Shown here: one piece after another, positions 2,795 to 39,328 of the stretch | Layout of the letters: the number at the start of each line of letters is the position of its first letter | Position numbering within the stretch: the stretch's first letter is position 1 | Assembly: GCA_005888595.1 (NCBI GenBank) | Contig: VBAL01000028.1 | Location: forward strand, 1 to 42,697 | Length of the DNA stretch: 42,697 bases | Source of the DNA: Candidatus Segetimicrobium genomatis | GTDB lineage: Bacteria > Sysuimicrobiota > Sysuimicrobiia > Sysuimicrobiales > Kaftiobacteriaceae | Direction of reading: 5' to 3' | Position numbers and translations under genes: made by a program | The notes under the pieces: model-generated | Told to the model about the DNA's origin: nothing | Seen by the model: only the letters and a program-made list of their open reading frames with translations | The model's database searches: none

Positions 2795-3205
2795 ACTGTG
2801 GAGGAATTGAGTCGCCTGTTCGAGGGACGCTCCAAGTTTGTGGACCGGCTGGCGCAGTACGATGATCCACTCCGGCGTGCGCGGGAGGTGCTGCGATCGC
2901 TAGCGGACGAAGAACTTCGCGAAGCGTTGAACGCCCACCCTCGAATTGGCGATCGGTCTGTTTCCGCTGCCTCGGTGGCAGAGCAGGGAACTCAGGAAGA
3001 TCAGTCGATAATAGCAGAGTTGAACCGGCTCAACCGCGCATATGAATCGAAGTTTGGTTTCCGGTTTGTGGTGTTCGTGAACAGGCGTCCACGGTCGCAG
3101 ATCATTCCCGTGCTGCGGGAGCGGCTTGCCCGGACCCGCGAACAAGAAGTGGCCACCGCCATAGATGAGCTGGTTGCTATTGCGGAAGATCGGCACCGAA
3201 AATAG
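2786..3205 (+). CDS. uraD: OHCU decarboxylase
   Basis: The 139-residue protein contains AHPRIGD (residues 50-56), whose His is the catalytic acid/base in this family, an EQ-containing loop, and FGFRFVVFVNRRPRSQIIPVLRERL in shortened form, matching the UraD C-terminal half (family proteins run about 160-170 residues, so this one is compact). It decarboxylates OHCU stereospecifically to (S)-allantoin. It completes uraH-uraD in order. The start at 2786 directly follows the 9-nt word array; upstream in-frame residues would be encoded by repeat sequence and are therefore excluded. Confidence 0.88.
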   Translation: MKLTVEELSRLFEGRSKFVDRLAQYDDPLRRAREVLRSLADEELREALNAHPRIGDRSVSAASVAEQGTQEDQSIIAELNRLNRAYESKFGFRFVVFVNRRPRSQIIPVLRERLARTREQEVATAIDELVAIAEDRHRK

Positions 3206-3313
3206 GGAAGAAGGAAGAGGGAAGAAGAAAGACAGGGAACGTGAAGAGGGGAAACCTTTAGAGCTGAACGACGAAGCGGTCCCCCTCTTCCATTTTCCCT
3301 CTTCCTTCTTCCT
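3206..3313. repeat. five-word inverted array, 7-nt words (R3)
   Basis: Left arm 3206-3240 is five 7-nt words (GGAAGAA, GGAAGAG, GGAAGAA, GAAAGAC, AGGGAAC); right arm 3279-3313 is five 7-nt words of TCTTCCN type. The arms are reverse complements in pattern, with a 38-nt spacer. It begins at the base after the uraD stop and ends just before the stop of the convergent BMP gene, so it sits where a bidirectional terminator would be. Confidence 0.8.
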
Positions 3314-30532: not shown

Positions 30533-30607
30533 GTTTTCCTCCCTGTATGGAACCCGGCTGTCAGCGTTGGGCTTCTTTGTATCATCCTGCCGCGGGTTCG
30601 TCAATAA

Positions 30608-30704
30608 GGAGGTGGGATGAGGACCTTGGACCGGGGACCAGAAGAGCGGCTAAGGAGTGACTCAGTTACTGGCCCCCTTGTCCAAGCTCCTCATCCCACC
30701 TCCT
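30608..30704. repeat. five-word inverted array, 7-nt words (R7)
   Basis: Left arm 30608-30642 is GGAGGTG, GGATGAG, GACCTTG, GACCGGG, GACCAGA; right arm 30670-30704 is TGGCCCC, CTTGTCC, AAGCTCC, TCATCCC, ACCTCCT. The arms pair almost perfectly along 35-40 bp. It stands in the divergent region between OsmC and YbaK, where neither gene needs a terminator. Confidence 0.85.
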
Positions 30705-30729
30705 TAGTTGATCTGTTGGTGATCCCGGT

Positions 30730-30817
30730 GAGACCGGACGACTCTCGGAGACGGGACCCGTAACTCAATCACTCAATAGCCGCACTTCGGGTCCCGGTCC
30801 GAGGGTCGTCCGGTCTC
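30730..30817. repeat. long imperfect inverted repeat (R8)
   Basis: GAGACCGGACGAC...GGGACCCG (30730-30760) is complementary to CGGGTCCCGG...GTCGTCCGGTCTC (30788-30817) with three or four mismatches. No clear word period. It stands 25 bp from R7, so the 410-bp gene-free stretch 30533-30942 holds two successive large inverted repeats and, after them, GAGATGCATCTC (a perfect 12-bp palindrome near 30850). Confidence 0.75.
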
Positions 30818-30942
30818 GCTCGCCGGCGATTATACTGGATGAGCCTTTTGAGATGCATCTCTTTTGCGCGAGGATACCTATATCGGCGGGATCCGGGAGG
30901 AGGATCGACGACGACTTTGGAATGCATCGCCGTGCGCAACGC

Positions 30943-36387: not shown

Positions 36388-36452
36388 GCCCGTTCCAAGT
36401 CGCCAGGCACATGCTGCGTGACCGAAAGCCTGGCAGGCGACTTGGCACGGGC
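36388..36452. repeat. palindromic element P1 (AGCCCGTTCCAAGTCG family)
   Basis: GCCCGTTCCAAGTCGCC (36388-36404) faces GGCGACTTGGCACGGGC (36436-36452), one mismatch; an inner stem CCAGGC/GCCTGG is also present. It starts right after the M23 gene stop and could terminate it. Confidence 0.85.
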
Positions 36453-36543
36453 CTAACCGGTCGTTGATTCTGCTCCAGCCGCATGCTAGCATTGCTGCTG
36501 ACAACCACATAATACGACCTTCGGGGCAGGGTGAGCTGACGGC

Positions 36544-36618
36544 CAGTAGGCAGTCGGCAGCATGCAGTCGGCAGTCCATGACAGACTGCTGACTGGGGAC
36601 TGGAGACTGCGGACTGTC
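36544..36618. repeat. five-word inverted array, 7-nt words, in riboswitch P2 loop (R11)
   Basis: Left arm is CAGTAGG, CAGTCGG, CAGCATG, CAGTCGG, CAGTCCA (36544-36578); spacer five nt; right arm is GACTGCT, GACTGGG, GACTGGA, GACTGCG, GACTGTC (36584-36618). Exactly 35 + 5 + 35 nt. It sits between the GGG and CCC of riboswitch stem P2. Confidence 0.9.
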
Positions 36619-36733
36619 GTTATGCGATTCCCGACCGGCGGTAATTCCGTTCCGATAGGACGGAAGAGCCCGCGACCCGCCGCCGTAGATACGGCGGCGG
36701 TGGATCCGGTGCAAGGCCGGAGCCGACGGTAAG

Positions 36734-36799
36734 CCCCGTTCCAAGTCGGCAGATCGATGGTCCGATCACGTGACATGGGCCTGCCGACTTGGAACGGGG
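36734..36799. repeat. palindromic element P2 in riboswitch P6 loop
   Basis: CCCCGTTCCAAGTCGGCAG (36734-36752) and its exact reverse complement (36781-36799) enclose 28 nt. Same family as P1 and P3. It replaces the short GAAA-like loop between GACGGTAA and TAAGTCCGG of the aptamer. Confidence 0.9.
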
Positions 36800-36821
36800 T
36801 AAGTCCGGATGGGAGAAGGTC

Positions 36822-36935
36822 ACACACGCGACCATGGGACCACGCGACCATGGGACCAAGCAGGATGGATTATGCCTGGTACCCTGGCGGCCTGGTTCCT
36901 TGGTCCCGTGGTTTGTGTCCTGCCCCCTGGTCGCC
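36822..36935. repeat. inverted array, 8-nt words, in riboswitch expression platform (R12)
   Basis: GACCA recurs every 8 nt at 36830, 36838, 36846, 36854 (a degenerate word precedes); CTGGT-type words recur every 8 nt at 36876, 36884, 36892, 36900, 36908, with more complementary sequence to 36935. It stands between the aptamer and the GGAGGGG of ribU, where a switching hairpin would be. Confidence 0.8.
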
Positions 36936-36952
36936 TAGATCGGAGGGGCAGC

Positions 36953-37501
36953 GTGAGACGATTCGTGCAGGTCGCAGTCCTCGGCGCGGTGGCTTTTGCC
37001 TTCATGTACGTGGACTTCCCGATCCCACCCTTTCCGCCGTTTCTCAAGTATGATCCCAGCGACGTGCCTGCCCTCATTGCTACGTTCGCGCTGGGACCCA
37101 GCGCAGGAATCTCCGTTGAGGTGATTAAGGCGCTGCTGATCCAGTTGCTGCGTTCCGGCACAGTGGGCGGACCGTTTGGGGTTTTCATGAACCTGCTCGC
37201 CGGCGTGACGCTGACGGGGGCGGCCGGCGTTTACTATCTGATCGACCACACCAGGCCCGGTGCGATCAAGGCGCTGGTGCTGGGGGTGCTGGCGATGACC
37301 GGTGTCATGATCCTGGCCAACCTGGCGCTCACACCGACCTTCTTCGGCATTCCGAGACCGCAGGTGGTGGCGCTCGTGCTTCCCGCGCTGCTGCCGTTCA
37401 ACATCGTCAAAGGGACGGTGACGTCGCTGCTGACCTACGTGGTCTACAAGCGCGTTCGCGTCTACCTGTACGAGTGGATCGGGGACCGCACGGCTTGGTA
37501 G
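36953..37501 (+). CDS. ribU: ECF transporter riboflavin S component
   Basis: The 182-residue membrane protein has MYVDFPIPPFPPFLKYDPSDVPALIATFALGP, GGPFGVFMNLLAG and LLPFNIVKGTVTSLLTYVVYKR, the RibU substrate-specificity pattern. It captures riboflavin and works with shared EcfA/EcfA'/EcfT energising subunits located elsewhere. GTG 36953 has CGGAGGGG five nt upstream. The FMN riboswitch in its leader confirms the assignment and predicts repression when FMN is plentiful. Confidence 0.93.
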   Translation: MRRFVQVAVLGAVAFAFMYVDFPIPPFPPFLKYDPSDVPALIATFALGPSAGISVEVIKALLIQLLRSGTVGGPFGVFMNLLAGVTLTGAAGVYYLIDHTRPGAIKALVLGVLAMTGVMILANLALTPTFFGIPRPQVVALVLPALLPFNIVKGTVTSLLTYVVYKRVRVYLYEWIGDRTAW

Positions 37502-37508
37502 TAATGCA

Positions 37509-37630
37509 GTCCTCCCAGTCTTCTTAGTCTTCACGGTCTTCCCGGTCCACACCGACCGTGTCCAACAACAAACTTTCTGATTGTAGACTGGGGAGACTGG
37601 GTAGACTGAGAAGACCGGGTAGACCATGAA
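37509..37630. repeat. five-word inverted array, 9-nt words (R13)
   Basis: GTC occurs every 9 nt at 37509, 37518, 37527, 37536, 37545 (words GTCTTCNNR); GAC occurs every 9 nt at 37586, 37595, 37604, 37613, 37622. Spacer 32 nt. The last word contains the start codon of the amidohydrolase (ATG 37626). Word sequence is close to that of R1, about 36 kb away. Confidence 0.85.
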
Positions 37631-39239: not shown

Positions 39240-39328
39240 CCCCGTGCCAACTCGATGCCCGGGGCTAGCTCTCGCGCGTTGCGCTGGTTTTGATAGGGAG
39301 ATGTGACGATCGAGTTGGTACGGGGCTA
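39237..39328. repeat. palindromic element P3 (AGCCCCGTGCCAACTCG family)
   Basis: TAGCCCCGTGCCAACTCGAT (39237-39256) faces ATCGAGTTGGTACGGGGCTA (39309-39328), one mismatch. The left arm contains the stop codon of the amidohydrolase and the right arm the stop codon (39326-39328) of the convergent zinc-ribbon gene, so both genes end inside the element. Confidence 0.85.

Follow-up and report, generated by a model that had tools for sequence, protein, structure and literature searches.

A mobile, MITE-like palindrome within the P6 loop of an FMN riboswitch of Candidatus Segetimicrobium

The 2.94-Mb draft genome of Candidatus Segetimicrobium (G000) has an FMN riboswitch at positions 36516-36821 of the window, i.e. 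of the whole 42,697-nucleotide stretch of DNA that was analysed, with all RFN segments in order. We consider it very probable that this is a riboswitch with an intact core, that its P6 was interrupted by a MITE-like, GIY-YIG-related palindrome before the sampled species split, that the palindrome then spread, and that the array in P2 is a separate matter.

The sequence of events that we propose is as follows. The palindrome would have entered the P6 loop before the three sampled Segetimicrobium species (G000 and its sister species G001 and G002) diverged. Because insertion duplicated a 4-nt target (TAAG), L6 nucleotides would have been left on either side of the new 19-bp helix. The palindrome would be a non-autonomous relative of a GIY-YIG element of ~300 nt with the same terminal inverted repeats, and the nuclease of that element may cut CNNG-like sites and mobilise both the coding and the palindromic forms. 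From P6 of one riboswitch, the copy probably spread to further FMN riboswitches in the genome, at least once via ectopic gene conversion. The P2 insert would be an independent, quickly changing heptamer-array hairpin. Both inserts may have been kept because they lengthen peripheral helices and leave the core and junctions intact.

Structure of the interrupted riboswitch

All features of the riboswitch lie on the forward strand. The 5' strand of P1, J1-2 and the 5' strand of P2 form the segment GACCTTCGGGGCAGGGTGAG (36516-36535), which is paired in the minimum free energy (MFE) fold and identical at 20/20 positions in G001 and G002. The P2 insert follows (36536-36625; fold of 36516-36635 with z -4.3). 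It is a heptamer word-array hairpin with arms of 7-nt units, CAGTCGG at 36544-36576 and GACTGCG at 36584-36616, both called by TRF. The 3' strand of P2, P3, P4, P5 and the 5' side of P6 (36626-36733) were located with the RF00050 alignment, are conserved except in the P3 and P4 loops, and end in the left target duplication, TAAG (36730-36733). Next comes the P6 insert (36734-36799; fold z -6.2), a palindromic MITE-like element with a 28-nt spacer between its arms. The right TAAG (36800-36803) opens the segment GTCCGGATGGGAGAAGGTC (36800-36821), which comprises the 3' side of P6 and the 3' strand of P1, is paired in the MFE fold and is identical at 22/22 positions in both sister species. Downstream lie the expression platform with a further word-array hairpin (36825-36934), for which G002 has different words, and the putatively regulated gene (36953-37501), encoding an ECF transporter substrate component (PF12822, E 1.6e-22) that is RibU-type by context. 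The ribosome-binding region of this gene (36945-36957, GGGGCAGCGTGAG) matches the start of the aptamer (36523-36535, GGGGCAGGGTGAG) at 12 of 13 nt.

Unconstrained MFE folding of 36510-36825 recovered P1 to P6, with P1 as GACCUUC/GAAGGUC and a hairpin for each of the two inserts (-180.9 kcal/mol, z -9.9; equally low energies in 0 of 100 shuffles). The core segments agree with those of intact relatives and of the sister species. We infer that the interrupted RNA functions as an FMN-responsive riboswitch. Matches to MIR1846 and other miRNAs were discarded as chance matches to the hairpins.

The original prediction named a real FMN riboswitch with inserts of two unrelated kinds, and this agrees with the RFN segments, the P1-P6 fold, the riboflavin-type transporter gene downstream and the distinction between the P2 heptamer array and the P6 MITE-like palindrome. 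The 66-nt palindrome that it placed in P6, with perfect 19-nt arms, was found at 36734-36799. Its expectation that the inserts extend helices without disturbing the core is borne out by the recovery of P1-P6 in the MFE fold and by the conservation of the core around them. It had also expected RF00050 to align with two long insertions. The model did match the core (E 2.6e-10), but at 49.6 bits, below the gathering score of 66.2, which is a curation cut-off rather than a structural definition. The alignment covers 36584-36754 instead of the true span of 36516-36821; the length of the inserts shifts P1/P2 and the 3' portion of P6/P1 out of register.

The P2 array is a separate, fast-changing repeat class, unlike the P6 palindrome family. 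In G001 the P2 loop is an array of other words, and in G002 it is a plain short P2; the aligned identity of the P2 insert between G000 and G002 is 4/90. No target duplication or other evidence of mobility ties the array to the palindrome family, and the earlier proposal that both inserts are insertion elements thus stands for the P6 palindrome and not for the P2 array. P2 extensions are common across the order. Intergenic hairpins with arms of 7-9-nt word arrays are also common in the genome; at a given site the words differ from one sister species to another, with the pairing kept. Such hairpins occur in the window at 1668-1774, 3200-3312, 36544-36616, 36825-36934 and 37527-37624, and elsewhere at 2106-2191 of locus L003 and 1266-1365 of locus L078.

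The palindrome family and its GIY-YIG partner

The P6 insert is mobile DNA and belongs to a family of palindromes, with termini CCGTNCNAA, that make 4-nt target duplications and are found genus-wide in Segetimicrobium. The end pattern CCCGTNCNAA...TTNGNACGGG detected 12, 8 and 11 palindromes in three genomes of the genus; beyond the genus, among seven further members of the family, it detected a single copy, in one genome of another genus. A reversed control pattern gave zero matches in the searched genomes. These counts are lower bounds, since a pattern-based census misses diverged copies; in G000 at least 18 copies are known, coding ones included.

With the copies aligned on their ends, 32 of 46 had an exact 4-nt target duplication at one single offset (orthologues counted separately), whereas control offsets that are not shifts of the true one gave identical 4-nt flanks in 0-1 copies. 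The duplications are mostly CNNG (CTAG, CAAG, CTTG, CATG, CCAG and others), with an overall target preference of YNNR/CNNG; that of the P6 copy is TAAG. Over 22 copies the arms co-vary, with 14.9 of 16 positions paired against 11.6 ± 0.3 in mismatched joins. The palindromes thus show the MITE features that were tested, namely terminal inverted repeats, lack of an ORF, several scattered copies and a target duplication. Rfam searches at gathering level of 20 other palindrome loci returned no structured RNA. Reading frames across the other palindromes carry no information in this GC-rich genome.

Two further copies lie on the forward strand of the window. One (36388-36452) stands right behind the stop codon of an M23 peptidase gene and is flanked by CTAA; G002 has a clean empty site here (CTCTAGCC versus CTCTAA[insert]CTAACC). 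The other (39240-39325) has a longer spacer and the duplication CTAG. At two seemingly orthologous copies (L118 1071-1133 and L090 1502-1564) the duplication is CGTG in G002 and CATG in G000, alike on both sides, which reflects either a concerted change or a new insertion at the same site. The window also contains two adjacent long, near-perfect hairpins of unrelated sequence (30605-30706 and 30728-30819).

In the genus, two short GIY-YIG genes of G000 and one of G002 lie between inverted repeats of the palindrome type (297-302 nt end to end). The nuclease is the only gene of these ~300-nt elements that share the palindrome termini. Elements with the same ends and CTAG duplications occur in Acidobacteria and Bryobacterales, and one GIY-YIG element of Taylorbacteria has TCCCGTACGAAACA ends. 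An acidobacterial 76-nt copy with the duplication TTAG resembles the two ends of a coding element joined together, as judged by eye against the 3' end of the gene. Within the phylum, strong-scoring matches to the nuclease were restricted to this genus, the same distribution as that of the palindromes. A GIY-YIG gene bounded by the terminal inverted repeats was not found in G001, plasmid and phage homologs were distant only, and NCBIfam holds no model for these nucleases.

Because the same termini and duplications bound the GIY-YIG elements, the palindromes appear to be MITE-like derivatives of these elements, presumably moved by the nuclease. They have their ends in common with a coding element, which would be the autonomous partner. 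A second terminal-repeat type (TTTACCC.../ACCCCGTTA...) bounds homologs of the nuclease gene in Taylorbacteria and in three other lineages. GIY-YIG genes with this type, at L146 1491-1776, L147 1480-1756, L155 796-1084 and L136 1465-1753, suggest a wider class of GIY-YIG elements. Other subfamilies of GIY-YIG genes, and many homologs at a greater distance, were checked and showed no such terminal repeats.

It is a tentative proposal, to which we give somewhat less than even confidence, that these elements are an undescribed minimal class of prokaryotic transposons (~280-315 nt, with terminal inverted repeats and 4-nt CNNG duplications) moved by a lone GIY-YIG nuclease of ~95 residues, and that their palindromic derivatives reside in peripheral helices of working riboswitches. 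The open-access literature yielded no report of prokaryotic GIY-YIG elements with terminal repeats or of MITEs in riboswitch loops, and no precedent for transposition by a GIY-YIG enzyme.

Filled and empty alleles, target choice and alternative explanations

G000 has three FMN riboswitches, upstream of the ECF gene of the window, of ribD and of an ECF riboflavin transporter gene (ECF-ribofla_trS), and P6 of all three holds a nearly identical palindrome. The orthologues of the window riboswitch in G001 and G002 both have the P6 copy with the TAAG duplication, and hence this insertion is older than the split of the three species. The ribD riboswitch of G001 has an empty, normal L6 (GGTATAGTCC) and an RF00050 score of 87.0, against 65.0 for the filled ribD riboswitch of G000. 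This allele, together with the plain P2 of G002, supplies the uninterrupted sister alleles that the original prediction had called for. The G000 ribD copy differs from the window copy at 2 of 66 nt and has discordant flanks (TATAG left, TAAG right). Because the flanks are mismatched and the sister allele is empty, P6 of the G000 ribD riboswitch was probably filled by ectopic gene conversion between FMN riboswitches rather than by a new insertion.

L2 and L6 touch each other in the solved FMN aptamer, where L2 is a T-loop (PMC3764141), which confirms the contact that had been invoked earlier. The further claim that exactly this pair of loops had been altered did not hold, as inserts also occur in P3 and P4 of sister loci. 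The ribD riboswitch of G001 carries a different palindrome in P3, and P2 of the ECF-ribofla riboswitch holds a palindrome in G000 and G002 and a word array in G001. Target duplications are absent from the P2 and P3 palindrome copies, and these copies could therefore be remodelled or otherwise derived. A P6 insert was seen in this genus only; in all of the ~35 L6 loops that could be extracted from outside it, GGT and GTC are 3-4 nt apart. In a related genus, the P5 loop of one FMN riboswitch (L068, G003:C33) holds an unrelated insert of ~70 nt. At the only cobalamin riboswitch found in G000 (L078 963-1029 and 1022-1211, minus strand), a palindrome of the P6 family, present in G001 too, adjoins the aptamer at its 3' end; a position within an aptamer loop was ruled out here, since the palindrome lies in the expression platform.

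The aptamer has been retained along with its P6 helix, and its core is near-invariant while the inserts diverge. In a comparison of G000 with G002, the core segments are identical at 20/20, 19/21, 13/14, 35/36 and 22/22 positions and the expression platform at 57/119, while the P6 arms are identical at 19/19 and 19/19 and the spacer between them at 18/28. The identity of the arms could stem from selection on the helix or from homogenisation of the copies. A rival explanation is domestication of the palindrome as part of the riboswitch, for example as a genus-specific P6 extension that takes the place of the L2-L6 contact or provides a site for RNase III or another protein, and that is positively selected instead of tolerated. 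Palindromes in all three FMN riboswitches of G000 speak for this explanation, as do the 38/38 identical arm positions across species and loci despite spacers that match at only 18/28 or 17/29 positions. However, the orthologous ribD riboswitch of G001 has a normal L6 without a palindrome, gene conversion among riboswitches also explains the identity of the arms, and some copies outside riboswitches likewise have identical arms between species. Domestication is possible, but on present evidence we regard it as unlikely.

Still less likely is that riboswitch hairpin loops are the true targets, recognised by the nuclease as cruciforms or single-stranded loops. Four of the known copies of G000 sit in its three FMN aptamers and represent at least two independent insertions, with one more in G001, even though aptamers are a tiny fraction of the genome (~450 nt of 2.94 Mb without the inserts). 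We estimated the chance of at least two among ~15 independent insertions at ~2e-4, even on the assumption that only ~350 kb of non-coding DNA was available. Stems of at least 5 bp were in excess in rebuilt targets (6 of 26 versus 1.9 expected; p 0.013, uncorrected), and a target in Acidobacteria forms a perfect 7-bp hairpin whose loop contains TTAG. Yet the 26 rebuilt targets did not differ from mismatched joins in mean folding energy (-6.3 versus -6.4; p 0.55) or mean stem length (p 0.15). Hence the original idea that hairpin loops are the general insertion site of the elements was not supported. As the targets overall lack a clear hairpin preference, permissive loops combined with exchange among paralogous riboswitches offer a simpler account.

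Decay of the riboswitch, with regulation destroyed by the inserts and the sequence left as a relic, is improbable. It would accord with the normally invariant length of L6 in relatives and with the RF00050 score under the gathering level. The core, however, is almost unchanged over three species although the inserts and platform have diverged, the pairing of P1 and P2 is intact, and so is the downstream transporter gene. Finally, it was judged highly improbable that the palindromes are of the REP type, with a Y1 tyrosine transposase (RAYT) as their mobiliser: each genome has two Y1_Tnp genes, but the Y1_Tnp loci retrieved from the genus carry palindromes of other kinds and lack an inverted pair of CCGTNCNAA termini, and the family makes 4-nt target duplications, which are not expected from REP/IS200-type Y1 insertion. 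The short palindromes near the RAYT-like genes are at L160 1365-1397, L162 2093-2117 and L163 1214-1287, and are unlike the CCGTNCNAA family.

Relation to known elements and significance

The riboswitch shares with the FMN riboswitches of RF00050 (RFN elements) the P1-P6 fold, the conserved core and the position upstream of genes for riboflavin transport or synthesis, and differs in the long inserts in its P6 and P2 loops and in scoring below the gathering threshold. Like prokaryotic MITEs (PMC10969869), the palindromes are short, lack ORFs, have terminal inverted repeats and target duplications, and have ends in common with a coding element. In contrast to those MITEs, the partner encodes only a GIY-YIG nuclease, a protein that this review does not mention (PMC10969869), the element is nearly all palindrome, and it lies inside aptamer loops. 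The Rickettsia palindromic elements are likewise small palindromes tolerated within functional genes, but by description they are set apart as larger (~150 bp) and best known in-frame in protein genes (PMC10969869). Homing endonucleases of the I-TevI type have the GIY-YIG catalytic domain in common with the nuclease described here, and the CNNNG preference of the I-TevI nuclease domain (PMC3943268) is similar to the CNNG duplications. Here, however, the gene does not lie in an intron; it belongs to an element that ends in terminal inverted repeats, is flanked by direct duplications and has dispersed to many sites.

The occurrence of a minimal GIY-YIG element in several phyla raises the question whether a GIY-YIG nuclease can act as a transposase. 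The filled and empty alleles are natural variants of a well-studied riboswitch, so that sequences already tried by evolution can serve to test whether the L2-L6 contact is needed. More generally, mobile DNA can give structured RNAs new peripheral helices, with the target duplication preserving the loop nucleotides on both sides.
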